From Olsenella profusa F0195 (GTDB lineage: Bacteria > Actinomycetota > Coriobacteriia > Coriobacteriales > Atopobiaceae): DNA of 64,000 bases. Position numbers and translations under genes: made by a program. Under the pieces are notes generated by a model. The model ran no database searches. It saw only the letters and a list, made by a program, of their open reading frames with translations, and was not told where the DNA came from. Positions 28,163-46,512 of the stretch are shown here, piece by piece. The stretch spans positions 186,001-250,000 of the forward strand of contig NZ_AWEZ01000045.1 of assembly GCF_000468755.1 (NCBI RefSeq), read 5' to 3'. Within the stretch, counting starts at the first letter, position 1, and every line of letters starts with the position of its first letter.

Positions 28163-29770
28163 ATGGCACGAGGCAGTCAGGACATCAAGTACGACCTCGA
28201 CGCGGGCACGTGCGTTCTCGGCTTGGAGTACGGCTCCACGCGCATCAAGGCGGTGCTCATCGACTCTGCCAACGAACCAGTGGCCATAGGCACCTTCGAC
28301 TGGCAAAACAGCTTTGACGGCACCTACTGGACCTACCCTGAAAAGGAGCTGCTGGGTGGCATGCAAGCCGCCTACGCCTCCCTCAAGGCGGATGTCAAGG
28401 CTCGTTACGGGATGACGCTCCGCCGCATCGGGGCCATGGGCATCTCGGCCATGATGCATGGGTACCTGCCCTTTGACGCCGAGGGCACGCTGCTGGTTCC
28501 CTTTCGCACCTGGCGCAACACGACTGCGGCCCAGGCGGCCCGCGAGCTGTCCGACCTCCTTCGGTTCCATGTGCCCGAGCGCTGGAGCGTCAGCCACTTC
28601 TATCAGGCGGTGCTTGATGGGGAGGCGCATGTGCCGCACGTCTCCTTCCTCACGACGCTCGCGGGGTATGCCCATTGGAGGCTTACGGGCAAGCGGGTGC
28701 TTTCCGTTGGTGACGCCTCGGGCATGTTCCCCATCGACTCCCTCACCAGGGACTACGATGCAGCGATGCTGGACAGCCTTGACAGGGCCCTGGCCCAGAG
28801 GGGGGTCAGGAAGAGCTTCGGGGATCTGCTGCCCGAGGTACTGACTGCGGGGTCAGAGGCGGGGCGCCTGAGCGATGCGGGCGCACACCTCCTGGATGTG
28901 GGGGGTGACCTCGAGGCGGGCTGTCCCCTCTGTCCACCGGAGGGAGACGCCGGCACCGGTATGATGGCCACGAACTCCGTCGCCCGGCGTACGGGCAACG
29001 TGTCCGCAGGCACGTCGGTTTTCTCGATGGTGGTGTTGGAGCATCCCCTCAGGGATGCGACGCTGTCCCAGATCGACCTGGTGGCGACGCCCGTTGGCGA
29101 TCCCGTTGCGATGATTCACTGCAACAACTGCACGTCCGACATAAACGACTGGGTCGAGCTCCTGATGGACTACTCCCAGACCATGGGAACCCCCGTGGAC
29201 AGGGGCGACGTCTACACCACGCTCTTCAATGCGGCGCTTGGCGCCGACAGGGACGCGGGTGGCCTCGTGAGCCTGCCGTTCGTTTCCGGAGAGACGGTCA
29301 TGGGCGTGCGGACGGGCCACCCGCTCTTCATGCGCAAGCGAAACGCACGCTTCACCATCGCGAACTTCATGCGCATGAACGTCATGGCCGCCTTCGGGGC
29401 GCTTGCGGTAGGCCATGAGGCCCTCAAGGCCGAGGACGTGCGGATCGACAGGCTCTATGCGCATGGTGGCATGTTCAAGACGCCCGGGGTCGCCCAGACG
29501 ATCCTCGCGGCCGCGCTTGACGTGCCCGTGACCGTGATGGCGACGGCAGGGGAGGGCGGTGCCTGGGGTCAGGCGCTAGCCGCATCCTACATGCTCAATG
29601 GGGGAGAGGGAGAGTCTCTCGCCGACTTCCTGTCCCGGCGCGTCTTCTCGAACATGGCGAGCGTCACGATTGGGCCCGACGCGGACGATGTGGCGGGTTA
29701 CAGGACCTTTCTGAAGGACTTCACGAAGGGCAACGAGGTCGAGAAGGCCGCCGAACGACACTTTGCCTGA
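28163..29770 (+). CDS. FGGY-family carbohydrate kinase, probable L-ribulokinase
   Basis: Phosphorylates a ketopentose, most likely L-ribulose made by the isomerase encoded 86 bases upstream. The 535-residue protein has the ASKHA phosphate motifs: LGLEYGSTRIKAVLID at about residues 19-34, ATNSVARRTGNVSAGTS mid-protein for ATP, and AHGGMFKTPGVAQ for the adenosine site. The ATG at 28163 follows AGGAGGAGGA. FGGY members with this layout lie beside araA in several Gram-positive bacteria. The exact sugar is inferred from context, so no symbol is given. Confidence 0.85.
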   Translation: MARGSQDIKYDLDAGTCVLGLEYGSTRIKAVLIDSANEPVAIGTFDWQNSFDGTYWTYPEKELLGGMQAAYASLKADVKARYGMTLRRIGAMGISAMMHGYLPFDAEGTLLVPFRTWRNTTAAQAARELSDLLRFHVPERWSVSHFYQAVLDGEAHVPHVSFLTTLAGYAHWRLTGKRVLSVGDASGMFPIDSLTRDYDAAMLDSLDRALAQRGVRKSFGDLLPEVLTAGSEAGRLSDAGAHLLDVGGDLEAGCPLCPPEGDAGTGMMATNSVARRTGNVSAGTSVFSMVVLEHPLRDATLSQIDLVATPVGDPVAMIHCNNCTSDINDWVELLMDYSQTMGTPVDRGDVYTTLFNAALGADRDAGGLVSLPFVSGETVMGVRTGHPLFMRKRNARFTIANFMRMNVMAAFGALAVGHEALKAEDVRIDRLYAHGGMFKTPGVAQTILAAALDVPVTVMATAGEGGAWGQALAASYMLNGGEGESLADFLSRRVFSNMASVTIGPDADDVAGYRTFLKDFTKGNEVEKAAERHFA

Positions 29771-29795
29771 GGCCGACTCGTCACAGGCTCGTGTG

Positions 29796-30794
29796 CTAGA
29801 GGGTTCTCACGCTGTCCCGTTCGACGAACGAGGTCGAGATGTGGGTTGTGCACACAAAGCTCTGGGGGCTCTTGACCTGTGCCATGAGCTTCTGTACGGC
29901 CATGATCCCCATGTCGTGCTTGGGAACGTGGATCGTCGTGAGGGCGGGAAGCATGACGGTGGCAATGGGCAGGTCGTCGAAGCCCACCAGCGAGACATCC
30001 TCGGGGACGCGGATGCCTCGCTCGAGCAGGGCGCGCATCATGCCACAGGCCATGACGTCATTTTCAGCGAAGAACGCCGTCGGGAGCTCGGGGTTGGTGT
30101 CCAGCCACCTCTTGGAGTCCCGATAGGCCAGGGAGAGCGTGGTGCCCACGGTCACGCGGTACCTGTCCTCAAAGGACAGGCCGACCTCGGCGAGGGCATG
30201 CCTGCAGCCTCGCTCGCGCAGGGGGAAGTTGCGGATGACGGGGTCGCCCTTGAGGTAGCCGATGTGCTCGTGCCCGTGGGAGATGAGGTAGCGCACCGCA
30301 CGGTACGAGGAGCTCTCGTTCGAGATGACGATGGACTCGATGAAGTCGTGGTAGCACCAACCGTCAACGATGACGAGTGGAACGGATGGGCTGTGAAGCG
30401 GCCTGTAGTCCTCCTCGTCCATCTCGGTTCCCAAGAGGACGATGCCCGAACCGACATCCTGGCACAGCCGTCGCATCTGCAGGGAGGAGTCGGGATCGCT
30501 CAGGTCTATGGTCACATAGCCCGTGCCCAGGCCATTCTTTCGGGCCTCACGCTCGACGCCATTGATGACCGCAGGATGGAAGTCCGACTCGTCGAGGACG
30601 AGGCCGCTTTTTCGGACGATCACGAACTGGATGCGCGTGAGACGGCTTGGGAGGTTGTATCTCAGCCTTTGCGCAGCGCTGAGGATGGCCTTGGAGGTCT
30701 CTCGCCTCACGCCGTGCTTATGGTTGAGTGCGTTGGAGACCGTTGCCGGCGAGAAGCCGGTCTCTCTGGCTATGTCGCGGATCGAGACGCCCAT
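29796..30794 (-). CDS. LacI/GalR-family transcriptional regulator
   Basis: DNA-binding repressor of 332 residues. The helix-turn-helix SIRDIARETGFSPATVSNAL lies at residues 4-23, followed by the hinge and a periplasmic-binding-like sensor domain (from about residue 58) that binds a sugar effector. It ends with the usual TTHISTSFVERDSVRTL-type tail. The gene is convergent with the kinase gene (25-base gap) and probably regulates the arabinose operon. Its own promoter overlaps a LacI-like AAACGTTT site, which suggests autoregulation. Confidence 0.93.
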   Translation of the reverse strand: MGVSIRDIARETGFSPATVSNALNHKHGVRRETSKAILSAAQRLRYNLPSRLTRIQFVIVRKSGLVLDESDFHPAVINGVEREARKNGLGTGYVTIDLSDPDSSLQMRRLCQDVGSGIVLLGTEMDEEDYRPLHSPSVPLVIVDGWCYHDFIESIVISNESSSYRAVRYLISHGHEHIGYLKGDPVIRNFPLRERGCRHALAEVGLSFEDRYRVTVGTTLSLAYRDSKRWLDTNPELPTAFFAENDVMACGMMRALLERGIRVPEDVSLVGFDDLPIATVMLPALTTIHVPKHDMGIMAVQKLMAQVKSPQSFVCTTHISTSFVERDSVRTL

Positions 30795-30807
30795 AATTCA
30801 GTCCAAA

Positions 30808-30821
30808 AAACGTTTATATCA
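30808..30821 (-). promoter_or_regulatory. lacI-type gene promoter (extended -10) with overlapping operator
   Basis: Reading the minus strand, TG-A-TATAAA (30821-30813) is an extended -10 element 19 bases before the start codon. It overlaps the palindrome AAACGTTT at 30808-30815, which has the central CG typical of LacI-family operators. Occupation by the regulator would block its own promoter. Confidence 0.45.
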
Positions 30822-30888
30822 GTGTTTACTACACTGTACCCTATCGAGCGGAGCAGGCCCGCGGCATCGAAGGCCCACGGCTCGTGCC

Positions 30889-31938
30889 CTAGTACACCAT
30901 GCCCATGACCTCGCGCACCTCGTCGAGCGTCCTGGTGGCAATCTCGTTGGCACGGCGGTTGCCGTCATGGATCACGTCCCTGACGTAGTCCAGGTCGCCC
31001 TCGTACTGGTGGCGCCGCTCGCGGATGGGGGCGAAGCAGTCATTCACGGCCTGCGTCACGTACTGCTTGAGCTGACCGGCACCGCCCCCACCGATCTCCG
31101 CGGCAATGTCTGCGGGGTCGCGGCTGGTACAGATGCCGGCAGTGGTGAGCAGTGCGGACACGCCGGGACGGTTCTCGGGATCGAACGTGATGGTGCGCTC
31201 GGAGTCGGTCTTGGACTTCCTGATGAGCCTGGCCGTCTCCTCTGGCGTCATGCTGATGGAGATGGCGTTGCCATAGCTCTTGCTCATCTTGCGGCCGTCG
31301 AGGCCGGGGATGAGCGGCGTCGACGTGAGGAGGCCCGCCACGTCGGGGAAGACCCTGCCATAGCGCTCGTTGAAGCGGCGGGCGATCCTTGCCGCCATCT
31401 CGATGTGGGGGAGCTGGTCGCGTCCCACCGGCACGATGTTGCCCTTGCAGAACAGGATGTCGCAGGCCTGGTGCACGGGGTAGGTGAGCAGGAGTCCCGT
31501 GAGGGCGTGGCCAGACGCCGCCTGCTCGGCCTTGACGGTGGGGTTGCGCCTCATCTCCGTCTCGGTCACGAGCGAGAGGAACGGCAGCATGAGCTGGTTT
31601 GCCGCCGGCACGGCAGAGTGCGTGAAGATCATGGTCCTGGCGGGGTCGATGCCACAGGCGAGGTAGTCCATGACCATGTTATAGACGTTGTCCCGGACGT
31701 GTTCGGTGGTGTCACGGTCGGTGATGACCTGGTAGTCCGCGATGATGATGCTGGTGCTGACGCCCAGGTCCTGCAGGCGAACGCGCTCCTTGATGGTGCC
31801 AAAGTAGTGGCCAAGATGGAGTCGTCCGGTGGGACGGTCGCCCGTGAGCACGCGGTACCTGTCGGGGTTGGCCCCGAGGTCGTCCCGGATCTGGTTGCTG
31901 CGGCGCAATGCCGCCTCGTAGCTGCCCTCGTTTGGCAT
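30889..31938 (-). CDS. trpS: Tryptophanyl-tRNA synthetase
   Basis: Charges tRNA-Trp with tryptophan. The 349-residue product has the class I signatures RPTGRLHLGHY at about residues 35-45 (HIGH-type) and GRKMSKS near 215. It also has the dimer-contact and Trp-binding segments DYQVITDRD and VPVGRDQ. It belongs to the longer TrpRS group seen in high-GC Gram-positives and clostridia. The LacI regulator gene lies 94 bases downstream on the same strand and the metalloprotease gene 66 bases upstream. Confidence 0.96.
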   Translation of the reverse strand: MPNEGSYEAALRRSNQIRDDLGANPDRYRVLTGDRPTGRLHLGHYFGTIKERVRLQDLGVSTSIIIADYQVITDRDTTEHVRDNVYNMVMDYLACGIDPARTMIFTHSAVPAANQLMLPFLSLVTETEMRRNPTVKAEQAASGHALTGLLLTYPVHQACDILFCKGNIVPVGRDQLPHIEMAARIARRFNERYGRVFPDVAGLLTSTPLIPGLDGRKMSKSYGNAISISMTPEETARLIRKSKTDSERTITFDPENRPGVSALLTTAGICTSRDPADIAAEIGGGGAGQLKQYVTQAVNDCFAPIRERRHQYEGDLDYVRDVIHDGNRRANEIATRTLDEVREVMGMVY

Positions 31939-32004
31939 GTATGCTCCTCGTCATCCGATGTGCGACGCTCCCCATGATACGGCACCGGAGGCAGCGATGC
32001 GCCC

Positions 32005-32694
32005 TCATCGCTGCGGGGGATCGTCGCGCAGCCGGGCGCGCGCCTCGCTCCAATGGGGATGGTATTGGCCCATGAGCCTGTAGAAGTTCTGGTTGTGGCT
32101 GGGTTCAAGCAGGTGGCAGAGCTCGTGGACGACCACGGACTCCAGGCAGGGGGGCTCGCGGTAGGCCAGCTCAAGGTTGATGGTGATGTCGCCCGTGCGT
32201 ACGTTGCAGGAACCCCAGCGGCTCGTCATGCGACGTATGCGCGTGCGTGCGTGACGTACGTCCATCGCGCGCTCATACCGATAGAAGAGCTCCTTGAGCC
32301 TGTCCGCGAGCATGCGCTTGGCCAGCGCGTCGACGGTGGCGCGGACGCCGTCCACGTACGGGCTCCCCTCGGGGAGACCCACCCACAGCACATCCCCATC
32401 CAATCGCGCGAGGCGGCGTGGCGCCACCTGAACCGAGAGGACGTACGTGGTTCCGAGCAGGACTATGCGGCTACCATTCTGCCAGCGCGTTCGCTCGTGC
32501 AGGGAGCGGTCCCTCATCTCCCGAAGTCGCCCGTCAATCCAATCGGCGCGCCCCATCACCATGCGCTCAAGGTCTTGCGCACCCACGCGCAGAGGCGCGC
32601 TGATGCGGAGCGTGCCGTCGGGACGCACGCGCATGTTGATGTGGCGCACGCCGCCACGATGGAGCGCTACGTCATAGGGGCCCATGCGAACCAT
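32005..32694 (-). CDS. YgjP-like (SprT-related) zinc metallopeptidase domain protein
   Basis: Predicted zinc hydrolase of the DUF45/YgjP group (229 residues from this start). The metal site HELCHLLEPSHNQNFY near the C-terminus gives HExxH-like ligands with a third His, and RMTSRWGSC, just before it, is the other family hallmark. There is no signal peptide. The start is uncertain: ATG codons at 32754, 32727 and 32694 all lack a strong ribosome site, and 32694 is chosen because family similarity begins there. Cellular role is not established. Confidence 0.75.
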   Translation of the reverse strand: MVRMGPYDVALHRGGVRHINMRVRPDGTLRISAPLRVGAQDLERMVMGRADWIDGRLREMRDRSLHERTRWQNGSRIVLLGTTYVLSVQVAPRRLARLDGDVLWVGLPEGSPYVDGVRATVDALAKRMLADRLKELFYRYERAMDVRHARTRIRRMTSRWGSCNVRTGDITINLELAYREPPCLESVVVHELCHLLEPSHNQNFYRLMGQYHPHWSEARARLRDDPPQR

Positions 32695-32825
32695 GCGCTC
32701 GCGCTCTGTCCCACCACATGCGACCATTGACCATCTTTTCGTGTGCTTCGCCATTTGACAGAACTTTGATCAGGAGTCTAGGCTATCGTAGCCTCAGTTG
32801 TTTTGTACATTGCGTAGGAGATGGG

Positions 32826-33440
32826 ATGATGGCAAGCTCTCGGGGTGAGGACGCCAGCAAGGATGCGTTGCGTAATGGTTACATCACTGCGTGCGATGGC
32901 CTTTCGTCCCGCATACGCAAGCGTATGGACAGCGAGCTTCTCGTCCATCTGATCAACCTCTCCGAACTGCGCCGTGCGCATGTGCTCTTGGGCTATGTCC
33001 CCTATCGCGGCGAGGTCGATTGCATGCCCGTCATGGAGGACGCCCTCTCTCGGGGCGTTGCCGTCGGGTTGCCCAAGGCAACCAACGACGAGCGGTCGCT
33101 GAGGTTTGTGCGGGTGGACTCCCTCTCCCATCTCAGGCGGGGCCCTCGTGGCTTCCTCGAGCCGCACCCACGTCACAGTGAGCCTCTGGACACGAACGAC
33201 AGGGAGTCGGTCTGCCTCGTGCCCGGTCTGGTCTTTGACGCGCGCGGCTATCGCATAGGCTACGGCGCAGGCTACTATGACAACTTCCTGAGGTGGTATC
33301 CCGGACTTAAGGTGGGCGTCGCCCGCAGCCTGCAGGTAAGCGGGAGCCCCCTTCCCATAGAAGCGCACGACGTGCCCGTCGACACGCTCGTGAGCGATGC
33401 CGCCATCTGGCAGTGCCGCAGGGAGCACGATCTGGCCTAG
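32826..33440 (+). CDS. 5-formyltetrahydrofolate cyclo-ligase
   Basis: Converts 5-formyl-THF to 5,10-methenyl-THF with ATP, recycling a storage or inhibitory folate. In about 204 residues it shows the phosphate/metal motif VPGLVFDARGYRIGYGAG followed by YYDNFL, the family signature. AGGAG lies just before two adjacent ATGs at 32826 and 32829; either may be used. Its stop codon overlaps that of the convergent dehydroquinase gene (shared CTAG). The flanking genes show no functional link. Confidence 0.9.
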   Translation: MMASSRGEDASKDALRNGYITACDGLSSRIRKRMDSELLVHLINLSELRRAHVLLGYVPYRGEVDCMPVMEDALSRGVAVGLPKATNDERSLRFVRVDSLSHLRRGPRGFLEPHPRHSEPLDTNDRESVCLVPGLVFDARGYRIGYGAGYYDNFLRWYPGLKVGVARSLQVSGSPLPIEAHDVPVDTLVSDAAIWQCRREHDLA

Positions 33441-34396
33441 CCCCTGCCCGTGTGGGGATGCGGCGTGAGGGGGCTGCCACCCTCCCGTGCGTCCCCCAGA
33501 TGGTCGGCAAGGCTTCTGATGGCGTGCGCATAGCCTTGGATGCCCTCGCCCGCGATGGTCTCGAGACAGGCGGAACGCAGGTAGGAGACCTGTCGAAAGT
33601 CCTCTCGCATATCCACCCGTGAGATGTGAACCTCTATGGTGGGTATCGAGACAGCCCTGAGGGCGTCAAGGAGGGCAACCGAGGTGTGCGTGTACGCTGC
33701 GGGGTTGATGACGATGCCATCAAAGACGCCATAGGCATCCTGGATGGTATCAACGATGTCTCCCTCATGGTTTGACTGGAAGCAGGTGCAGCGAGCGAAC
33801 CCAGCCTCGTGCGCCGTCGTGTGGCACAGTTCGAGGAGGGTGTCAAAGCTCTCGCTACCGTAGAGGTCAGGCTCCCTAATGCCCAGCATGTTGATGTTGG
33901 GGCCGTTCACGACAAGCAGGGCGGGTCGCCCCGTGGGCTCGCCCGCGTCCTCTTCCTCCTCGGCGTCCGCCAGCAGCGACGCAAGGAAGTCCACCTCGTC
34001 ATGGGCGTCGTCCTCGTCGTCCGCATCAAGCGTGGAGGAGACGAGTGTCCCGACGTCCTCCTCGCCATGCGACCCTCGAATGACGCTCACCTTGAGACGA
34101 TGCTCCTGGTTGGCCGGGGCATCCTCGGTGTCCACGCCCCCATTCGTCCCGCAGAGCTGTGACACGGCGTCGTACACGCTGTGCACCGCATTGGGGCCAA
34201 AGACCACCTCTATGCCGCTGTGCCCCCGCTTGGTTATGCCCAGCACGCCAGGGACGTCAAAGAGGGCCGTCTGGTCAACCTTGTCTGGGTCGACGAGTGC
34301 CAGCCTCAGGCGTGTCATGCAGAGCGTGCTGGAGACGACGTTCTGTGCGCCGCCAACGCTTTGGAGCACCTTGCTCGCCACTGCATCCACATCCAT
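33437..34396 (-). CDS. aroQ: PTS EIIB-like domain fused to type II 3-dehydroquinate dehydratase
   Basis: Dehydrates 3-dehydroquinate to 3-dehydroshikimate. The 319-residue protein is about twice the family length. Residues about 3-83 resemble a glucose-family PTS EIIB domain: VGGAQNV, then the phospho-acceptor motif LCMTRLR with Cys26, then PGVLGI and VVFGP. An acidic linker (about 100-157) follows. Residues 159-300 are a complete type II dehydroquinase with NGPNINMLGIREPDLYG at 164-180 (Arg174, Tyr179), NPAAYTHTS at 231-239 and EVHIS at 255-259. The ATG at 34396 has GGAGG 8 bases before it; the ATG at 34414 would place that site inside the gene. It is last in the aromatic operon. Regulation through PTS phosphorylation is inference. 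Confidence 0.88.
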   Translation of the reverse strand: MDVDAVASKVLQSVGGAQNVVSSTLCMTRLRLALVDPDKVDQTALFDVPGVLGITKRGHSGIEVVFGPNAVHSVYDAVSQLCGTNGGVDTEDAPANQEHRLKVSVIRGSHGEEDVGTLVSSTLDADDEDDAHDEVDFLASLLADAEEEEDAGEPTGRPALLVVNGPNINMLGIREPDLYGSESFDTLLELCHTTAHEAGFARCTCFQSNHEGDIVDTIQDAYGVFDGIVINPAAYTHTSVALLDALRAVSIPTIEVHISRVDMREDFRQVSYLRSACLETIAGEGIQGYAHAIRSLADHLGDAREGGSPLTPHPHTGRG

Positions 34397-34492
34397 ACCG
34401 GGCACCTCCGCCATTCATGCGTACCGTCACCGTTCCGAGTATAGGCAGCGCCGCAAAGGTACCTTGTCATACTTTCGGCGAGCGTCGGGGTC

Positions 34493-35797
34493 TCAAAACG
34501 CAGATGAGGGATGGGAGAGGAGTCTCTGTATGAGTTGCGCGTCCGATGCGGCCGACCCCGTGCAGTCGATCGTGACGTCCGCCCATCGCTCGTAGAGGGC
34601 CGTGCGCTCGGCGGCCAGGGCCTCGATGCCCCGCGAGATGGAGAGGGGGCGACCCTCGCTCGAGAGCTCGGCAAGCGGGCGTCTGATGAGAACGATGGTC
34701 GCGTTCTGGTGAAGGAGCCGATAGTTCTCGGGACGCGTGACGATGCCGCCACCACAGGCGATCACCATGCCCGAGCGGGCACCATAGTTGCTGGCGACGG
34801 CAGTCTCGATGGCCCTGAAGGCATCCTCGCCGTCACGCTTGATGATGTCCTCGGGCGATGCCTGCCTGAGCCGGATGGCCTCGTCGAGGTCGACAAAGGG
34901 GCGCCTCATCAGACGGGCCAGGCTCCTGCCCGTGCTGCTCTTCCCTGAGCCAGGCATGCCTATGAGGGCCACGTTGAGGTGGCGTGCGCGCAGGGAGGCG
35001 ACCAGGGCATCCATGCGCTTGCCTGGAATCGTGCCTCCTTGGAAGAGCTCGCTGGATCGGACGGCCTGCCCCACCAGCATGGCAAGGCCCGACTCGCAGG
35101 GGATGCCGCACTCCTCCGCCATGAGGCAGAGCCCCGTGCGCAGGGGGTTGTAGACCACGTCCAGGATGCCGCCGAGATGGGGCAGTCCATCCAGATGGCG
35201 CCTTGAGAGCGGCGAGGCGGGGCAGGTGGGACACATGCCCACGGGCGTTGCGTTGACCACGAGGGTCGTGTCACCCTGTCGCTCGACGAGGGTGTCGTAG
35301 GTGTTCGCGCCCGTGCGGGAGATGACCGTCACGTGGGCGCCGGCATCGGAAAGCGCGGCCTGGACGGCCTGGCTCGCCCCCCCCGATCCCAACACGAGCG
35401 CCCTTGTGCCCGCGAGCGCCCCTTCGGCGGGAGCCCCCCACACGCGACGGGCGAACCTGTCGAGCATCCACGCGAAGCCGGCGTAGTCCGTGTTGTCGGC
35501 ATAGATGCTGCCGTCAGGCCTCCGCACGAGCGTGTTGGCCACACCGAGGCGTCGCGCCCGCACGCTTGCCTCGTCGGCAAGCTCGAAGGCCCTGCGCTTG
35601 TAGGGTATGGTCACGTTGATGCCACGCCAGCTTCCGGCGCGGACGAATGACTCGACGTCCTCGGGCTCACGCTCGAAGAGCTCATAGGGGGCCGACCCCA
35701 GCTCCGTGTGAATGGCTGGCGACCAACTGTGCCCCAGCGTACGACCCAGAAGGCCAAAGGGCGCATCCACTTGGGACGATGGGCTCTCGGCGGGCAT
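34493..35797 (-). CDS. aroE: Shikimate dehydrogenase-shikimate kinase fusion
   Basis: Two consecutive shikimate-pathway enzymes in one 434-residue chain. Residues 1-270 are AroE: GHSWSPAIH at 22-30 binds shikimate, with catalytic Lys67 (NVTIPYK), Asp104 (DNTD) and the NADPH loop GSGGASQA at 137-144. Residues 275-434 are AroK: P-loop GMPGSGKSS at 280-288, VDLDEAI at 302-308 and ACGGGIV. The chain would reduce dehydroshikimate and phosphorylate shikimate in sequence. Its ATG overlaps the pheA stop (ATGA). The aroQ gene follows after 96 bases. Confidence 0.95.
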   Translation of the reverse strand: MPAESPSSQVDAPFGLLGRTLGHSWSPAIHTELGSAPYELFEREPEDVESFVRAGSWRGINVTIPYKRRAFELADEASVRARRLGVANTLVRRPDGSIYADNTDYAGFAWMLDRFARRVWGAPAEGALAGTRALVLGSGGASQAVQAALSDAGAHVTVISRTGANTYDTLVERQGDTTLVVNATPVGMCPTCPASPLSRRHLDGLPHLGGILDVVYNPLRTGLCLMAEECGIPCESGLAMLVGQAVRSSELFQGGTIPGKRMDALVASLRARHLNVALIGMPGSGKSSTGRSLARLMRRPFVDLDEAIRLRQASPEDIIKRDGEDAFRAIETAVASNYGARSGMVIACGGGIVTRPENYRLLHQNATIVLIRRPLAELSSEGRPLSISRGIEALAAERTALYERWADVTIDCTGSAASDAQLIQRLLSHPSSAF

Positions 35798-36942
35798 CAG
35801 ATGACCTCCGCATAGCTACCCAGATAGCGCAGTTCCTGGCAGCTGCCCTCGAGGGTGCGCATGAGCCTGAGGAACTCGGGGGACGTCGCATCTGCGGCAA
35901 GGTCGAAGTAGAACATGAACTCGAAGTCGCGGTCGGGGATGGGACGGCTCTCCAGCTTGGTGATGTTGATGTCGAGCGCATAGAAGGTGCCGAGCACCTT
36001 GTAGAGGGCGCCTGGCTCGTGGTCAAGCACGAGCATGAGCGTCGTCTTGTCCGCGCCCGGGTAGATGACGAGGTCCTTGGCGATGCACGCGAAGCGCGTG
36101 TAGTTGTTGTCCTGGTCCTGCACGTTGCGGGCGAGCACGTTGAGCCCGTAGAGGTCGGCGCACGCCCGCGACGCCAGCGCGGCGATGCCCCCGTCCGGGC
36201 TCTCTGCGACCCTGCGCGAGGCCGAGGCGGTGTTCTCGCAGGCATGGACGCACACGCCCCCGAGCCCCGCGAGGAACCCCTCGCACTGCCTGATGGCCTG
36301 CTCATGGCTGTAGACGTCCGTGATGTCCGCCAGGGTGCAGCCGGGCTTGGCGAGCAGGTTGTGGTCTATCTTCACGCGACAGCTGCGCGCGATGTGGAAG
36401 TCGTGGCGCATCATGAGGTCAAAGACCTGGTTGACCGAACCGGCCGTGCTGTTTTCCAAGGGCAGTATGCCGTATTGGCAGAGGCCCTCCTCGACAGCCT
36501 TGAAGACGCCCTCGAAGCTGTCGAAGTAGGTGATGTCCGCATGGCGGAAGAGACGATCGGCGGCGATCTGCTGGTAGGCGCCCTCGCTACCCTGCGTCGC
36601 CACGAACGCGCTGGTGGGAAACGATCGCGGCATGGCGCCGAGGGCCTGGGTGATGGCATCGGAGATGTGCGTGTCGATGCCCAGGTGCTGGGACTGTCGG
36701 GCACGGGAGATGGACATGAGCAGCTCCATCAGGACGGCCGTCTGGTCCTTGAGGCCCTCTGGGGCGCGCTGCATGGCGCAGCGCACGACGGCACGCTCAC
36801 GCGAGCGGTCGAGCACGGGGATGCCATGGGCCGCCTTGTATGCCGCAACCCTGTCGGCGCAGTCCATGCGCTCTACGAGGAGATCCACCATCTGGCGGTC
36901 GATCCTATCGATATCCTGGCGAATCTGTCGGAGGTCTTCCAC
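35797..36942 (-). CDS. pheA: Chorismate mutase-prephenate dehydratase (P-protein)
   Basis: Converts chorismate to prephenate and then to phenylpyruvate for phenylalanine. The 381 residues contain an AroQ-type chorismate mutase at about 1-90 (DRIDRQMVDLLVERM), prephenate dehydratase at about 105-290 with LPLENSTAGSVNQVF and NNYTRF, and an ACT domain from about 300 with the ESRPI motif that senses phenylalanine. It starts 9 bases after aroC and overlaps the aroE-aroK start. Feedback inhibition by phenylalanine is expected for the family. Confidence 0.95.
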   Translation of the reverse strand: MEDLRQIRQDIDRIDRQMVDLLVERMDCADRVAAYKAAHGIPVLDRSRERAVVRCAMQRAPEGLKDQTAVLMELLMSISRARQSQHLGIDTHISDAITQALGAMPRSFPTSAFVATQGSEGAYQQIAADRLFRHADITYFDSFEGVFKAVEEGLCQYGILPLENSTAGSVNQVFDLMMRHDFHIARSCRVKIDHNLLAKPGCTLADITDVYSHEQAIRQCEGFLAGLGGVCVHACENTASASRRVAESPDGGIAALASRACADLYGLNVLARNVQDQDNNYTRFACIAKDLVIYPGADKTTLMLVLDHEPGALYKVLGTFYALDINITKLESRPIPDRDFEFMFYFDLAADATSPEFLRLMRTLEGSCQELRYLGSYAEVI

Positions 36943-36951
36943 AGGTGCTCC

Positions 36952-38070
36952 TTAGGCGTTGCGTCGGGCGTGCTCGGGAGGGAAGGAGAGCCAGGCGTCC
37001 AGCAGGGCAAGCGCGCAGGTGGCCTCCACCACGGGGACGGCGCGCGGTGCGATGCAGGGGTCGTGGCGCCCGGCGACCTCCACGGTGTCATCCTTTCCGC
37101 GCGCCATGTCAATCGTCTGCTGGGGACGGCTGATGCTTGAGGTGGGCTTGATGGCGACGCGCAGGATGATGGGGGCACCGGTGCTGAGGCCCCCCAGGAT
37201 GCCCCCCGCGTTGTTGCTCGTGGGCATCACCTCGGACCCATCGGTGTGCCAGGGGTCGTTGTCCTCGCTGCCGCGCAGGCGGGCCGCCGCAAAGCCCGCA
37301 CCGAATTCCACGCCCTTGATGGCGGGGATGCCAAAGAGCGCCCGGGCAAGCAGGTTCTCCAGGCCGTCGAACATGGGCGAGCCCACACCCGCGGGAAGTC
37401 CGGTGGCCACGCATTCGATGGTCCCGCCAACGGAGTCCTGGTCCCCGCGCGCGGCATCGATGGCCTGCGCCATGCGCCTCGCCACGGCAGAGTCGATGGT
37501 GGTGAGGGGCCGCGCCGCGGTCACCGCCTCCAGCTGTCGGTCGAGCACGGTGCCGGGCAGGGGGGCGAAGGGCTCGTCTTCCACCTCCGCAATGCTCGCA
37601 AGGTGTGCCGCCACACGCACGCCGCGTTCGCCCAGGATGGCACGGGCGATCCCACCTGCGGCACACAGTGGCGCCGTGAGCCTGCCCGAGAAGTGCCCGC
37701 CACCGCGGACGTCCTGGCTGCCGCCCCATTTCGCCTGGGCAGGCCAGTCCGCGTGACCGGGCCGGGGATGGGTGAGGAGCCTATCATAGTCCTGCGAGCG
37801 GGTGTTGGTGTTCTCTATGAGCAGGGCAAGCGGTGCGCCGCAGGTGTCTCCCCGCACATTGAGCCCAGCGACGACCTTGACGGCATCGGGCTCCGCGCGC
37901 GGCGTGGTCCAGCTGCCCTGTCCGGGCGCCCTGCGCGCCATGAAGGCGGCAAGCGCATCGAGGTCGACGTGATGGCCGGAGGGGAGCCCCTCCACCACGC
38001 AGCCGATCCCAGCCGAGTGTGACTGCCCAAAGATGCTCACGCGCAGGGTGTTCCCAAAGGAGGATGGCAT
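36952..38070 (-). CDS. aroC: Chorismate synthase
   Basis: Removes phosphate from EPSP to give chorismate, using reduced FMN as cofactor. The 372-residue protein starts SSFGNTLRVSIFGQSHS at residues 2-18 and has the family motifs GLPSGHHVD, RPGHADW and GGHFSGRLTA. Homology begins at the ATG at 38070, 4 bases after the aroA stop; a longer in-frame start would lie inside aroA. The ribosome site is weak, so translation is probably coupled to aroA. Confidence 0.95.
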   Translation of the reverse strand: MPSSFGNTLRVSIFGQSHSAGIGCVVEGLPSGHHVDLDALAAFMARRAPGQGSWTTPRAEPDAVKVVAGLNVRGDTCGAPLALLIENTNTRSQDYDRLLTHPRPGHADWPAQAKWGGSQDVRGGGHFSGRLTAPLCAAGGIARAILGERGVRVAAHLASIAEVEDEPFAPLPGTVLDRQLEAVTAARPLTTIDSAVARRMAQAIDAARGDQDSVGGTIECVATGLPAGVGSPMFDGLENLLARALFGIPAIKGVEFGAGFAAARLRGSEDNDPWHTDGSEVMPTSNNAGGILGGLSTGAPIILRVAIKPTSSISRPQQTIDMARGKDDTVEVAGRHDPCIAPRAVPVVEATCALALLDAWLSFPPEHARRNA

Positions 38071-38074
38071 GCTG

Positions 38075-39376
38075 CTACTCACTTTCCGTCGCCGTGCCGC
38101 CAAGGCGTCTGAAGTCATCGAAGAAGGCGGGGTAGGATTTCCGTACGCACTCTGCGCCCAGGATGGTGGTGGGGCCTGTGGCGGTGGCGCCGGCCACGGC
38201 CGCCATCATGGCGATGCGATGGTCATTGGCCGCATCCACGATGCCCCCTCTGAGGCGTGGGACGCCGTGGATGGCAAGGCCGTCCCCATTGATGGAGACC
38301 ATGCCACCCATCGCGTTCAGGGCTGACGAGACGGTCTCGAGGCGGTCTGACTCCTTGAGCCTCAGACGCTCGGCATGGATGATGCGTGTGGTCCCCGTGC
38401 ACGTGGATGCCACCGCCGCGAGGGGCGGTACGAGGTCGGGCACGTCGGCGGCGTCGATGGTGCGACCCGTGAGCGCGCCTCCGCGCGCCTCGGCCGTCGT
38501 GCCCTCCTGCCGCACGTGCGCGCCCAGCGAGGCCAGCGTCAGGAGGATGGCGCGGTCTCCCTGGTGGGAGCGCCCCTCCAGCCCGGAGACCCGTATGCCA
38601 CGGCCGAGGGCGCCAGCGCAGAGCCAGGAGGCCGCACAGGACCAATCGCCCTCCACCCGCACCTCGTCGGGACCTGCGGGGCGCGCGTCCGCGGCGATGG
38701 TGAGCGAGAGGTAGTCCCTGCCACCACGTGACGTCTCCGCCTCCGTGACGCCCACGCCAAAGGTGCCCAGGGCATCCAGCGTGAGCCTGATGTAGGAGAG
38801 CGACTCGATGGGCCGCTCCACGAGTATCGTCACGCGTTCGGTGAGTATGCACGCGGCGAGCAGGAGACCTGTCACAAACTGCGACGAGACCGTGCCGGGG
38901 AGCGTGAACGTGCCACCGGTGAGTGGGCCCGAGACGGTGAGGGGAAACGACCCCGGTGCCGAGAGGCGGGCATGGTGCGCGCAGAGCTCCTCCCATAGCG
39001 GCGAGAGCGGGCGCTTGGCCAGCCTGCCGTGTCCCTGGATGCTGCCGCCCCCGAGAGCGCAGAGCACAGGGAGCATGAAGCGCAGCGTGGAGCCGGACTC
39101 GCCGCAGTCGAGGCGTGCCCCTTCGGGAATCCTCAGCCCCGCCCCGTCTCGGGGAATCGGCACCACGCGAAAGCCGATGCGCGTGCGCGTGACGCGTGCG
39201 CCCAATGCCGACAGGCAGGTAGCCGTGGCGTCGATGTCCCTTGATGTGGTGGGGCAGAGCAGCGTGGTCGTCCTATCCCTGAGCGCGGCGAGCACGAGCA
39301 GGCGATGCGCCACGGACTTCGAGGCGATAGCCCCTATCGTCCCAGCGAGGGGGGAGGGCTCGATGGTGACCCTCAT
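38075..39376 (-). CDS. aroA: 3-phosphoshikimate 1-carboxyvinyltransferase (EPSP synthase)
   Basis: Transfers the enolpyruvyl group of PEP to shikimate 3-phosphate. The 433-residue protein shows GTIGAIASKSVAHRLLVLAAL near the N-terminus (the conserved Lys-Ser pair), the motif LDCGESGSTLRFMLPV for phosphate binding, and RLKESDRL late in the protein. The GAIASKS start differs slightly from the usual G..PPSKS, so glyphosate sensitivity cannot be assigned. Its ATG overlaps the aroB stop (ATGA); upstream in-frame extension would run into aroB. Confidence 0.95.
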   Translation of the reverse strand: MRVTIEPSPLAGTIGAIASKSVAHRLLVLAALRDRTTTLLCPTTSRDIDATATCLSALGARVTRTRIGFRVVPIPRDGAGLRIPEGARLDCGESGSTLRFMLPVLCALGGGSIQGHGRLAKRPLSPLWEELCAHHARLSAPGSFPLTVSGPLTGGTFTLPGTVSSQFVTGLLLAACILTERVTILVERPIESLSYIRLTLDALGTFGVGVTEAETSRGGRDYLSLTIAADARPAGPDEVRVEGDWSCAASWLCAGALGRGIRVSGLEGRSHQGDRAILLTLASLGAHVRQEGTTAEARGGALTGRTIDAADVPDLVPPLAAVASTCTGTTRIIHAERLRLKESDRLETVSSALNAMGGMVSINGDGLAIHGVPRLRGGIVDAANDHRIAMMAAVAGATATGPTTILGAECVRKSYPAFFDDFRRLGGTATESE

Positions 39377-40467
39377 CGCGACACACCGCAGCCAAGGCCA
39401 ACCAGGTCGGCGAGCTCCTGGGCACTGACCGTCCTGATCTCCACCACGCCGATGGCGCGCGGCACCACGACGTTGAAGGAGTCCCCATGGCGCTTCTTGT
39501 CGTGCAGCACGAGCGACATGATGCGTCCATGGGAGAGCCTGGTGTCCGTGGGAAGCCCGTAGGCATCCACGACACGCTCGATGTCGTCCGCCACGTCCTG
39601 CGGGCACCATCCGCACGCAGCCGCGGCGCGCGCCATGCAGCACATGCCTGCCGCCACGCTCGAGCCGTGCCCGAGGGTGAAGTCGCTTGCCGCCTCGATG
39701 GCGTGGCCGATAGTGTGTCCAAAGTTGAGGATCTGCCGCACGCCACCCTCGCGCTCGTCCGCGTCGACGACGTCGCGCTTGATCTCGACGTTGCGGGCGA
39801 TGAGGGCCGCGCGCATGGCATGCCTGGCGCCGTTGGCGTTGAGGGGCTGCTCGGCGAGCTTCCTGAACAGCGTCGCGTCACGGATGACCCCGTGCTTGAT
39901 CATCTCGCCGCACGAATCGGTGAGCTGCTCGTGGGTGAGCGTATCCAGGCACTCGACGTCGGCGATGACGAGCGTTGGCTGGAAGAACGCTCCCGCGAGG
40001 TTCTTCCCGGCTGCGAGGTCGATGGCACACTTGCCACCCACCGAGGAGTCGACCATGGCCAAGAGCGAGGTAGGCACCTGTATGACGGCACACCCTCGCA
40101 GGTACAGGGCTGCGGCAAGGCCTGCGATGTCGCCCGTCACGCCACCGCCCACGGCGACGACCACGTCATCGCGGGTGAGCTCGGCAGCGGCGAGGCCCTC
40201 GAGAAGGGCGGAGAGGGTATGGATGTCCTTGCTGGCCTCGCCCGCCTCGAAGACCTGCACGTCCGTCGTGAAGCCCGCCCTCCGCAGCGAGCCGGTGATA
40301 TCATCGGCATAGAGGGGGGCGACGTTGGAGTCGGAGATGACGTGCGCCCTGCGACCCCTGATGAGCCTGGCGGCGCGCGGTCCCACCTCGCCGAGGATGC
40401 CCTGGCCCACGAGGACCTCGTAGGACCTGGACGGCGTGTCCACTTGGATGACCCTGGTATCGCTCAT
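39373..40467 (-). CDS. aroB: 3-dehydroquinate synthase
   Basis: Cyclises DAHP to 3-dehydroquinate with NAD and a divalent metal. In 364 residues the NAD-binding stretch GGGVTGDIAGLAAALYLRG and the substrate motif VPTSLLAMVDSSVGGK are intact, followed by the metal ligands in MIKHGVI and LNFGHTIGHAIE. It is coupled by ATGA overlaps to tyrA upstream and aroA downstream. Confidence 0.96.
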   Translation of the reverse strand: MSDTRVIQVDTPSRSYEVLVGQGILGEVGPRAARLIRGRRAHVISDSNVAPLYADDITGSLRRAGFTTDVQVFEAGEASKDIHTLSALLEGLAAAELTRDDVVVAVGGGVTGDIAGLAAALYLRGCAVIQVPTSLLAMVDSSVGGKCAIDLAAGKNLAGAFFQPTLVIADVECLDTLTHEQLTDSCGEMIKHGVIRDATLFRKLAEQPLNANGARHAMRAALIARNVEIKRDVVDADEREGGVRQILNFGHTIGHAIEAASDFTLGHGSSVAAGMCCMARAAAACGWCPQDVADDIERVVDAYGLPTDTRLSHGRIMSLVLHDKKRHGDSFNVVVPRAIGVVEIRTVSAQELADLVGLGCGVSR

Positions 40468-41348
40468 CGTCCCTCAATCTTCCTCTTGATGCGGTCACCC
40501 TCAGAGAGCAGCTCCTCGAGCCGCTCGCCATCGTGCGTATCGAGCGCCTGCCTGTAGGCGGCGAGGTTGTCTATGAGCATGCCGATCTCCGTCGAGAGGT
40601 TGTCGGCGTCGTCAAGCATGAGCTCTCGCCACATGGGCGCGTTGAGGCGCGCCACGCGGGTGAGGTCGCGATAGGACCCTGCCGAGAATCCCTTGTGGTC
40701 GCGGGCCGAGGGGCTCTTCACGTAGGCGTTGGAGACCACATGGGCAAGCTGCGAGGTGAAGGCGATGACCTCGTCGTGCCGCTCGGCGCTCGTCACCGTG
40801 AAGCGACCGAAGCCGCACGGCTCGAGCAGCCGCTCGACACGGTCGAGGAGGTCGAGGCGGGCAAGGTCATCCAGGTCCTCGGGTGGCACCATCACCATGG
40901 GGGCACCCTTGAACATGTTGGCGCGCGAGTGGGCATAGCCGGAGTACTGCGTGCCTGCCATGGGATGGCAGCCTACGAAGTGCCAGGCATGCCCCCGGGC
41001 GATCCTGAAGCAGGCGGAGCAGATGGTGCGCTTGACGCCCACGGTGTCTATGACGATGGCGTTGGGTGCCACGAGGTCCTGATGACCAACGATCCAGTCG
41101 ATGGTCATCTGCGGATAGCCGGCGAGGATGACGAGCTCGCAGGTCCCAATGGTGTCATTGGTGAGCTCCGCGTCCACGGTGTCGATCATGGCGAGCTCGA
41201 GCGTGGCCCGCGTGCGGTTGCTGGCATAGACCTCGCGGCCGCCCTGGTGCAGGGCACGTGCGAACGAACCCCCCATAAGCCCCAGCCCCACGATGCCCAC
41301 GCGGCCGCTCACGAACGTTCCGACGTGCCCTCTCTCCCGCGTACCCAT
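40464..41348 (-). CDS. tyrA: Prephenate dehydrogenase
   Basis: Oxidatively decarboxylates prephenate to 4-hydroxyphenylpyruvate for tyrosine. The 294-residue protein has the dinucleotide-binding motif VGIVGLGLMGGSFARAL at about residues 17-33, and the HPMAGTQYSG segment that carries a catalytic His. No ACT domain follows, unlike many Gram-positive TyrA proteins, so tyrosine feedback may be absent or act differently. Its stop overlaps the aroB start; aroF ends 3 bases upstream. Confidence 0.93.
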   Translation of the reverse strand: MGTRERGHVGTFVSGRVGIVGLGLMGGSFARALHQGGREVYASNRTRATLELAMIDTVDAELTNDTIGTCELVILAGYPQMTIDWIVGHQDLVAPNAIVIDTVGVKRTICSACFRIARGHAWHFVGCHPMAGTQYSGYAHSRANMFKGAPMVMVPPEDLDDLARLDLLDRVERLLEPCGFGRFTVTSAERHDEVIAFTSQLAHVVSNAYVKSPSARDHKGFSAGSYRDLTRVARLNAPMWRELMLDDADNLSTEIGMLIDNLAAYRQALDTHDGERLEELLSEGDRIKRKIEGR

Positions 41349-41351
41349 GCG

Positions 41352-42374
41352 CTATGCCTCCAGCCTGGTCGTGACGGCATCCCTCACGAGGGAGACGCGT
41401 CGCATGGTCGTGGCGAACCCCTCGGGCGTGAGCGCCGTGGCCCCGCCCGACCGTGCCTCGTTGGGGTTGTCGTGCACCTCGACCATGAGGCCGTCCGCCC
41501 CGGCGGCGCACGCCGCAGGGGCGACGGGCGCGGCGTAGCGCCGGGAGCCGGCGGCGTGGTTGAGGTCGGCGATGACGGGGAGGTGCGAGAGGCGATGGAG
41601 GGTGGGGATGGCGTTGACGTCAAAGGTGTAGCGGGTGCGCGCCTCGAAGGTGCGGATGCCTCGCTCGCAGAGCATGACCCTGGAGTTGCCCTCGCTCATC
41701 ACGTGCTCCGTCACCATGAGTAACTCGTCTATGGTCTCGGACCTTCCGCGCTTGGGGAGCACGGGCACCCGTGTCCTGCCCACCTCCCGCAGGAGCGCGA
41801 AGTCCTGGGCGTTCCTCGTGCCGATCTGCATGACGTCGATGCCCTTGTCCACGAAGAGCCCCACGTCGCGTGTGTCCATGACCTCGTCCATGATGGGCAT
41901 GCCCACGTCGTGGCCCACCCGCGCGAGCAGCCCGAGCCCTGCCGCACCCATGCCCTGGTACGAGTAGGGATTCGTGCTCGAACGATAGGGGCTGCCCCGG
42001 AGCAGCGTGGCTCTCGCGGCCTTGGCCACCTCGGCAATGCGGTGGATGCTCTCGCCCTCGACGCAGCGGGGATCGGCGATGACGTGGAAGTTGCCGCCAC
42101 CGATGCGCACGCCATGGCCGCAGTCGATGGCGGTGTCCTCGGGGTGGAACGTGCGGTTCGCCTTCTTGAAGGGGTCGGAGACGCAGCGCACCTCCTCCAC
42201 GATGCCCATGGGCTCCAGAAGGAGGGGATCGATCCTGCTCGTGTCACCGATGATGCCCACGATGGTCTCGTTCTCGCCCTGGGAGACGTTGGTCCTGAAG
42301 CCGCGATCCTGTGTCCAGCTCACGAAGTGCTCGAGTTGTGCGGGCGTTGCCGACTCCTTGACGATGGTGATCAT
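41352..42374 (-). CDS. aroF: 3-deoxy-7-phosphoheptulonate (DAHP) synthase
   Basis: First enzyme of the shikimate pathway, joining PEP and erythrose 4-phosphate. The 340-residue protein is of the type with a small N-terminal ferredoxin-like regulatory domain (about 1-70, MITIVKESATPAQLEHF) followed by the TIM-barrel, with GGNFHVIADPRCVEGE, RGSPYRSSTNPYSYQG and MLCERGIRTFE. The ATG at 42374 follows AAGGAG; an apparent longer reading frame would run through the adjacent tRNA gene and is rejected. It is first in the aromatic operon. End-product control through the N-terminal domain is inference. Confidence 0.95.
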   Translation of the reverse strand: MITIVKESATPAQLEHFVSWTQDRGFRTNVSQGENETIVGIIGDTSRIDPLLLEPMGIVEEVRCVSDPFKKANRTFHPEDTAIDCGHGVRIGGGNFHVIADPRCVEGESIHRIAEVAKAARATLLRGSPYRSSTNPYSYQGMGAAGLGLLARVGHDVGMPIMDEVMDTRDVGLFVDKGIDVMQIGTRNAQDFALLREVGRTRVPVLPKRGRSETIDELLMVTEHVMSEGNSRVMLCERGIRTFEARTRYTFDVNAIPTLHRLSHLPVIADLNHAAGSRRYAAPVAPAACAAGADGLMVEVHDNPNEARSGGATALTPEGFATTMRRVSLVRDAVTTRLEA

Positions 42375-42415
42375 GCAAAAGGCTCCTTGGCTGGGCGGGA
42401 TGCCCAGGTAGATAG

Positions 42416-42445
42416 TAAGAAGGCCGGTGCCCGAAGGCATCGGCC
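42416..42445 (-). terminator. Intrinsic terminator of the tRNA-Arg gene
   Basis: On the minus strand GGCCGATGCC-TTCG-GGCACCGGCC forms a 10-bp stem (one G-U pair) capped by a TTCG tetraloop, followed by TTCTTACT. It sits 10 bases after the tRNA 3' end and 48 bases before the aroF start, so it also separates the tRNA from the aromatic operon. Confidence 0.65.
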
Positions 42446-42455
42446 GGCCAGGTGC

Positions 42456-42532
42456 TGGTGACCCCAGGGGGATTCGAACCCACGACCTTTCGCTCCGGAG
42501 GCGAACGCTCTCATCCACTGAGCTATGGGGCC
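42456..42532 (-). tRNA. tRNA-Arg (anticodon CCG)
   Basis: A full cloverleaf reads on the minus strand: acceptor GGCCCCA/TGGGGTC, D-arm GCTC...GAGC, anticodon stem TTCGC/GCGAA around loop CTCCGGA (anticodon CCG, reading CGG), TTCGAAT T-loop and an encoded CCA end. The T-stem GTGGG/CCCCC has one T-C mismatch at positions 50-64. A good promoter lies 10 bases upstream. Confidence 0.93.
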
Positions 42533-42542
42533 ATTGTTGCCA

Positions 42543-42571
42543 ATTATAGCGAATGTGCCGCGGCGTCTCGA
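42543..42571 (-). promoter_or_regulatory. Promoter of the tRNA-Arg gene
   Basis: On the minus strand TCGAGA (42571-42566; 4 of 6 to the -35 consensus) is followed after 17 bases by a perfect TATAAT (42548-42543). Transcription would start about 4 bases before the tRNA. Confidence 0.6.
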
Positions 42572-42647
42572 CGATGCGGGATAATCTCGAAAACAAGCTA
42601 GCCTGAAACATGTCGGTGCGGATGTCGCCAGGAGGGGGAGACGCGCT

Positions 42648-45338: not shown

Positions 45339-45360
45339 CGCAGGGAGAGAGGAGTCACGT

Positions 45361-46407: not shown

Positions 46408-46452
46408 GTGGGCCCTGGTGGGTCTGCCGAATGTGTGAAATAATATCGCTGC

Positions 46453-46461
46453 TGATAGAAT
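46453..46461 (+). promoter_or_regulatory. Extended -10 promoter before the cyclophilin gene
   Basis: TG-A-TAGAAT (46453-46461) is a good extended -10 element, 51 bases before the ATG of the peptidyl-prolyl isomerase gene. The -35 region is weak (GTGTGA), as is common with extended -10 promoters. It may drive the isomerase, the TPR gene and part of the mre operon. Confidence 0.42.
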
Positions 46462-46512
46462 GAATCGGATGAATGCACCCAGAAACGTCGCATGCTCATG
46501 AGGGGAGGGCCT

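Follow-up and report, generated by a model that had tools for sequence, protein, structure and literature searches.

A PTS EIIB domain fused to type II dehydroquinase is retained where the enzyme domain decays or is lost in an Olsenella-related family

The locus described here raises the question of why a phosphorylatable domain of the PTS should be joined to an enzyme of aromatic synthesis. Within the window, the whole 64,000-nucleotide stretch of DNA that was analysed, a gene on the minus strand (33437..34396) encodes an EIIB domain, an acidic linker and a type II dehydroquinase (AroQ) in a single frame. This minus-strand frame is open from 34414 to 33437 (325 aa) among the open reading frames of the window, and translation likely starts at the ATG at 34396, giving a protein of 319 aa; a ribosome-binding-like GGAGGT (34404..34409, minus strand) lies seven bases ahead of this ATG, which supports both the length of 319 residues and the numbering of the phosphorylatable cysteine as Cys26. 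The alignments discussed below use the 325-residue frame, from which subtraction of six residues gives the 319-residue protein, Cys32 of the frame being Cys26.

Pfam recognizes two domains in the fusion protein, PF00367 (E=1.1e-11, 44.4 bits against a cut-off of 27) and PF01220 (E=4.6e-52, 175.8 bits against a cut-off of 23.3), bearing out the one-frame, 319-residue EIIB-linker-AroQ architecture of the original prediction. The same search finds no EIIC domain and, unlike in PTS regulators of the PRD/MtlR type, no DNA/RNA-binding or PRD domain. The EIIB domain (34139..34393, minus strand) is assigned to the sucrose/beta-glucoside/MurNAc type of the glucose superfamily by profiles, PDB sequence search, AlphaFold2 and Foldseek. 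Its closest NCBIfam models are those of the sucrose, beta-glucoside and MurNAc types (TIGR01996, E=6.5e-17; TIGR01995; NF007152), the PDB search by sequence returns EIIB chains of the glucose PTS with 1o2f_B as the best (E=1.8e-7), and Cys26 (34319..34321, minus strand), invariant in readable relatives, lies in a CMTRLR motif. Modelled alone with AlphaFold2, the EIIB part reaches a mean pLDDT of 86, and Foldseek matches the model to the EIIB of an Mlc complex (3bp8_C, TMt 0.86), to the EIIA complex 1o2f (TMt 0.84) and to 3ipj_A, a prediction that confirms the proposed EIIB fold at the level of the model.

The AroQ domain (33497..33922, minus strand) shares the fold and the active-site residues of type II dehydroquinases (PF01220). 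All eleven active-site positions, for which we take the M. tuberculosis assignment, are unchanged in the window protein (Asn, Arg, Tyr, Asn, His, Asp, Glu, His, Ser, Arg and Arg), as expected from the earlier description of a complete enzyme with all active-site motifs. NCBIfam also gives aroQ, with NF003806, NF003805 and NF003807 passing their cut-offs and TIGR01088 (168.7 against 169.85) and NF003804 (154.1 against 195) falling short. In the full-length model the AroQ part matches type II dehydroquinases by Foldseek, the alignment with the C. glutamicum enzyme showing 48% identity, and the title of one solved type II dehydroquinase, PDB 5b6p, describes a dodecamer. Profile searches identify the fusion gene as the sole type II dehydroquinase gene of its genome, in which a PF01487 search detects no type I dehydroquinase.

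Between the two domains runs the acidic linker (33923..34138, minus strand), which contains a short V-x-I element conserved in relatives and an acidic amphipathic helix, DEVDFLASLL (33947..34006, minus strand), likewise conserved, whose block has a pLDDT of only about 45-58. The full-length model, computed as a monomer, has a mean pLDDT of 71 and a pTM of 0.49; residues 94-135 of the linker fall below a pLDDT of 50 and are predicted to be disordered, and a low-confidence helix is placed at 137-156, so the model does not fix the placement of the domains.

The fusion gene is the last in a same-strand run of genes that we take to be an operon. Ahead of it on the minus strand lie, in order, an aroF-type DAHP synthase gene (41355..42400, the start being approximate and the open frame running to 42611 across a tRNA), tyrA for prephenate dehydrogenase (40467..41348), aroB for 3-dehydroquinate synthase (39376..40467), aroA for EPSP synthase (38075..39379), aroC for chorismate synthase (36952..38118), pheA for a chorismate mutase / prephenate dehydratase / ACT protein (35797..36942), and an aroE-aroK fusion (aroEK) for shikimate dehydrogenase / shikimate kinase (34493..35797). 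The tRNA gene (42459-42532, minus strand) is located within the overlong DAHP synthase frame, just upstream of the aro genes, and a tRNA is the only kind of Rfam element found in 29000-47000. No promoter or terminator was found between aroEK and the fusion gene by a scan that expects few, and no EIIC was found near the fusion gene in the 8 neighbouring window proteins scanned.

Across the Olsenella-related family, AroQ (PF01220) is found in 127 of 140 genomes, and the EIIB and AroQ profiles share one frame in 125 of these 127, all AroQ loci of the family being covered by the window locus, 30 loci and 96 stretches; the genomes include near-copies (G039 belongs to the window's species, and G025 and G026 share domain scores), so the counts are not independent. 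One exception (L121) consists of two overlapping frames and looks like a frameshift, and in the other (L090) AroQ begins at a contig end while an EIIB-linker piece lies at another contig end of the same genome, which looks like a contig break. One-frame fusions occur in single-contig assemblies, one of them of the window's own species (G039). The joining of two genes by a frameshift or an assembly error, a caveat attached to the original prediction, is thereby ruled out. Named records with the fusion comprise Olsenella, Tractidigestivibacter, uncultured Coriobacteriaceae, Coriobacteriales and OL-1, and include Tractidigestivibacter scatoligenes (L012), which we take to be the same species as Olsenella scatoligenes. 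Of the three genera in which the same fusion had been suggested for comparison, Olsenella records carry it, but the one Collinsella locus (L016) encodes an AroQ without EIIB, and none of the records is titled Atopobium.

Outside the family, the fusion was absent among the matches listed for the 65 genomes of family f3, none of which starts before profile position 96, nor did the DNA around 20 loci selected in other families of the same order contain an EIIB match. Among 296 genomes sampled from the phylum, the 6 that belong to the family match over both parts; among the matches listed for the 290 non-family genomes, all start at position 133 or later and none is a fusion. In family f3 and the phylum sample a full-length match should rank high, and a very diverged one could escape. 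Among the matches listed, AroQ outside the family occurs mostly in frames of about 140-250 aa without EIIB, the order-wide survey (395 genomes) covering frame lengths among the matches listed. The likeliest origin is a single fusion event at or near the base of the family. In family f4, AroQ is also found in frames of 550-770 aa without EIIB (L190-L194 and L206, from G262, G322, G274, G231, G344 and G283), which are either spurious or other fusions.

Thirteen of the 140 family genomes lack AroQ. Five of them encode EIIB and the linker only, with profile matches of E=4e-32 to 8e-36, and eight others (G008, G009, G010, G011, G030, G052, G081 and G138) have neither AroQ nor a strong EIIB-linker match, their best match being E=1e-8 to 1e-23 or none; AroD, the type I dehydroquinase, was not detected in any of these eight. 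The EIIB-linker module may thus be dispensable, though six of the eight are less than 90% complete. The other two, G030 (94% complete) and G052 (100%), belong to family f1, and with neither AroQ nor AroD detected the pathway may be absent there, or the sequence may have gaps.

Within the family the phosphotransfer motif of EIIB does not vary. The Gly-Gly, Asn, Cys, Thr, Arg, Leu and Arg of GG..N..C.TRLR are identical in 124 of 124 readable fusions (125 were aligned, and the motif is not readable in L065, which is without its N-terminus) and also in all five proteins that carry EIIB without AroQ, giving 129 of 129 readable sequences and confirming that Cys26 is conserved in related fusions. Immediately ahead of the Cys, 126 of 130 rows (fusions and EIIB-only proteins) have I, L, V or M, whereas all seven transporter EIIBs of the window genome have N, H or A, and the aliphatic residue is by sequence a mark of the fused EIIB subfamily. 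A FastTree analysis places the fused and EIIB-only EIIBs (129 rows) in one clade with a support of 0.83 when set against the seven glucose-type transporter EIIBs at EIIC loci of the window genome only.

In the V-x-I segment of the linker, Val is present in 105 and Ile in 106 of the 130 proteins, and position 138 of the helix (144 in the 325-aa frame) is Leu in 127. Conservation of the helix was judged by this alignment column and not by a regular expression, which matched 105 of the 130, several of the misses being shifted variants, some of them loose ones (G077, G079 and G007 among others), and L065 being truncated. Synthesis of two products by internal initiation was rejected for the window protein, in which no start codon lies 25 to 3 codons ahead of the AroQ core; such a start codon is present in 66 of 125 fusions and comes with a Shine-Dalgarno-like match in just 11 of 125, so internal initiation is not a conserved feature.

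The dependence of EIIB on its enzyme partner can be judged from genomes that encode AroD (PF01487), which occurs in 24 of the 140 family genomes, 15 of them among the 16 genomes of genus g30 and the other 9 in genus g35. Twenty of these 24 keep a fusion; at least one of the eleven AroQ active-site residues is changed in 20 of 20, two or more are changed in 19 of 20, and the EIIB motif is intact in all readable fusions from AroD-bearing genomes. Fusions of g30 have lost six to nine of the eleven residues in 16 of 16 cases, and the changes in g35 number one in G126, two in G130 and G132, four in G133 and eight in G129. Where no AroD was detected, the active site is complete in 98 of 105 fusions and changed in seven, six of which show Ser to Thr only and one of which (G070, g30, 77% complete) has six changes. 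The association of AroD with a changed AroQ site has a Fisher p of 1e-17, a value that ignores kinship. A quick tree of AroEK covers 97 loci, being those among the 127 AroQ and five EIIB-only loci whose flanks were long enough. In it the AroD-bearing genomes occupy about three positions, namely g30, a clade of g35, and G130, and the starred branches force at least four changes, so the association rests on few independent events. A genome inside the AroD-bearing g35 clade, G125, has an intact active site and no detected AroD (76% complete), which fits the coupling.

In five genomes the AroQ domain is gone altogether while EIIB and the linker remain. Four of them (G122, G131, G135 and G137, all g35) carry AroD, and in G139 (73% complete) neither AroQ nor AroD was detected. 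The proteins (L209-L213, from G137, G139, G135, G131 and G122, respectively) end soon after the conserved helix; their linker contains F-Q-V-x-I-T-P-E-T-P-G, and their C-terminal region is acidic and rich in leucine. Their gene directly follows aroEK in all five genomes, and behind it a 5-FTHF cyclo-ligase gene is called in four of the five, the exception being L213, where simple gene calling kept an overlapping frame. Other frames seen in these genera include a type I AroD fused to shikimate dehydrogenase in G135 (575 aa, L220:3675-5399, minus strand, located on a different contig from the EIIB-only gene), frames of 577-578 aa for AroD in G131 and G132, and a 740-residue frame between aroEK and the EIIB-AroQ gene of the g30 genome G066 (L184:2457-4676).

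These observations bear directly on the proposal that phospho-EIIB alters the dehydroquinase activity of AroQ itself, making the protein a PTS-phosphorylated enzyme switch. Such a switch is consistent with the presence of EIIB and AroQ on the same polypeptide, with the complete active site of most fusions without detected AroD (98 of 105) and with the invariance of EIIB and its Cys. That same invariance also counts against it, as an EIIB serving AroQ alone should decay along with AroQ and does not: EIIB is intact in 20 of 20 decayed fusions, the Cys is kept where six to nine of the eleven residues are lost (16 of 16 in g30), and both persist in the five genomes without AroQ. The claim that EIIB exists only to switch AroQ was thus not borne out as stated; switching of AroQ alone cannot account for everything observed, and we consider this explanation unlikely, although such switching may be the second of two roles, and not the sole one, in species with a live AroQ.

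That EIIB outlives AroQ is most simply explained if EIIB and the linker together have a function of their own. The invariant phosphotransfer motif argues that this function would make use of phosphorylation, and the fixed place after aroEK, even without AroQ, argues for a target in aromatic synthesis, although that place could also be explained by inertia. We give about an even chance to a PTS-phosphorylated regulatory module that is kept for itself and tied to the aromatic pathway, with AroQ as its carrier; the phosphorylation, the partner and the direction of control are the parts of this reading that we infer.

Estimates of selection were restricted to pairs with dS of 0.1-2.0, which in g30 left 90 of the 120 EIIB pairs and 50 of the 120 AroQ pairs; as many of the pairs used are near saturation, the values are given little weight. 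In g30, EIIB has a median dN/dS of 0.18 and the decayed AroQ one of 0.28; for the five fusions of g35 with altered sites the corresponding values are 0.18 and 0.30. With a live-looking AroQ, the medians of EIIB and AroQ come to 0.15 and 0.16 in g33, 0.14 and 0.12 in g35, and 0.06 and 0.03 in g34. The EIIB of the EIIB-only set ranges from 0.02 to 0.20 (7 of 10 pairs scorable). The decayed AroQ is under weakened constraint but has not escaped it altogether, in keeping with a carrier fold, and in three close g30 pairs the decayed domain gives 0.05-0.11, so it may do something itself. That constraint, like the persistence of EIIB across the family, would be expected if EIIB were a frozen structural or solubility domain without phosphotransfer, for example an oligomerisation or docking tag. 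Nothing in such a role, however, requires the Cys, the Thr and both Arg to be identical in 129 of 129 readable sequences, and the EIIB-only proteins have no AroQ to help; a purely structural role appears improbable.

The regulatory module that we favour would draw its phosphate from the general PTS. Profile searches find EI, HPr and three glucose-type EIIA domains in the window genome, and EIIA (PF00358) occurs in 134 of the 140 family genomes and in 100 of the 101 good ones. No PF00358 EIIA was found in G074 (98% complete), which keeps the fusion and whose EI is a 98-residue frame cut off at a contig start, so the assembly may be broken there. EI was found in 8 of 9 genomes queried and is missing only in G139. 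Glucose-family EIIAs of B. subtilis are reported, in an excerpt of PMC6148471, to serve EIIA-less transporters of a group including SacP and MurP, and on this precedent a soluble EIIB could draw phosphate from a general EIIA.

A complete Cys-TRLR phosphotransfer motif would equally suit an EIIB that acts as an in-trans phosphoryl donor for an EIIC without its own EIIB, a moonlighting part of transport, and EIIC is plentiful in the window genome, with 21 matches; of 20 EIIC loci, 13 have no glucose-type EIIB in the EIIC frame. One of them, L241 (G000:C16), is a beta-glucoside-type EIIC frame of 361 aa without an in-frame EIIB. Within this genome, however, the other 12 of those 13 loci fit Lac/Cel or Fru-type models or have an IIB of a different type, and L241, which comes with two separate EIIC pieces, is probably a broken transporter gene. 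The aliphatic residue before the Cys also sets the fused EIIB apart from all seven transporter EIIBs, and the gene stays after aroEK when AroQ is lost, leaving a role in transport very unlikely. We likewise see little prospect for a phosphate sink or buffer, in which a multimeric AroQ displays EIIBs that compete for EIIA phosphate and so tune the PTS and not the aro pathway: the dodecamer of PDB 5b6p and the intact EIIB motif suit it, but EIIB-only forms exist without a scaffold and the gene sits among aro genes.

For a regulatory module kept for itself, a possible course of events can be outlined. PTS proteins are dephosphorylated during uptake of a PTS sugar and phosphorylated without sugar when PEP is present, according to an excerpt of PMC10305011. 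Most likely, a glucose-type EIIA would phosphorylate Cys26 when PEP is plentiful and PTS sugar scarce, and sugar uptake would drain the phosphate from it. In one of the two states, EIIB and the acidic linker would act on a partner in aromatic synthesis, which might be one of the aro enzymes, DAHP synthase for example, or a protein that regulates the genes. AroQ would be a dehydroquinase, live-looking by its residues in most species, and in addition a carrier or multivalent scaffold for the module. A more specific version, which we advance only tentatively, is that the soluble EIIB is a standing PEP/sugar sensor for aromatic synthesis that was born as an N-terminal extension of AroQ, outlives it under AroD, persists either attached to a pseudo-dehydroquinase that is dead and multimeric or as a free protein of EIIB plus peptide, and acts through the conserved linker helix on a pathway enzyme or regulator.

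Some elements of this model are already known, as a fusion of an enzyme with EIIB has a named precedent (NF011497) and partners controlled by EIIB are represented by Mlc and MtlR. The precedent, a triosephosphate isomerase / EIIB protein (NF011497, PRK14905), also joins an enzyme of central metabolism to an EIIB of the same superfamily away from any EIIC. The AroQ fusion matches this model with E=3.2e-5 for the whole protein and 2.2e-6 for the domain, at 23.4 bits against a cut-off of 485, and the EIIB part alone aligns. The two differ in enzyme and pathway and in the position of EIIB, which is C-terminal in NF011497 (model positions 277-353 of 357) and N-terminal in the AroQ fusion; the precedent is known here by its family name only, an open-access search having found no paper on triosephosphate isomerase-EIIB in the partial texts it returned. 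The EIIBC transporters (TIGR01996, TIGR01995, NF007152) provide the closest EIIB models, and the fused EIIB is 42% identical to that of an EIIBC of the same genome (L221:116-1597, minus strand), the nearest of seven; the fusion differs from these transporters in having no EIIC or sugar channel, in the aliphatic residue before the Cys and in forming its own clade (support 0.83). A 119-residue frame lies beside the L221 gene.

The fungal repressors QutR and QA-1S are regulators derived from shikimate-pathway enzyme domains, and share with the reading proposed here the idea of a shikimate-pathway enzyme fold that stays in a regulatory protein after loss of catalysis; they differ in having no PTS link and other domains. 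Unlike AroQ elsewhere, the fused AroQ decays or is lost in AroD-bearing relatives. Control of a partner protein by EIIB is known from EIIBGlc and Mlc in E. coli and from the EIIB of MtlA and MtlR in B. subtilis, and the predicted structure of the fused EIIB matches the Mlc/EIIB complex 3bp8. In both of these systems EIIB is part of a membrane transporter, whereas the fused EIIB is soluble and tied to an anabolic enzyme. Sequestration of MtlR is cited in an excerpt of PMC6148471. No AroQ with an EIIB domain was found in the open-access PMC literature, in agreement with the earlier statement that no described one was known, nor was a PTS module in aromatic synthesis that is family-wide and kept on a decayed enzyme or alone.

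To our knowledge, there is no known direct input of PTS phosphorylation into aromatic synthesis. The PTS and the shikimate pathway both spend PEP, and the balance of PEP between them is a practical question in biology and fermentation. Olsenella scatoligenes is described, in an excerpt of PMC12613830, as a source of the aromatic product skatole. The family also contains its own natural controls, with a live AroQ plus EIIB, a dead-looking AroQ plus EIIB, and EIIB alone, all with the same invariant Cys, which makes the function dissectable, and it offers a case in which an enzyme domain is becoming, to all appearances, a pseudoenzyme that carries a signalling domain. That EIIB is kept after AroQ has decayed or disappeared suggests a control module, not described before, by which sugar status is coupled to the metabolism of aromatics; if the sensor reading is true, the PTS would have a direct line of control over an anabolic pathway that is its competitor for PEP.
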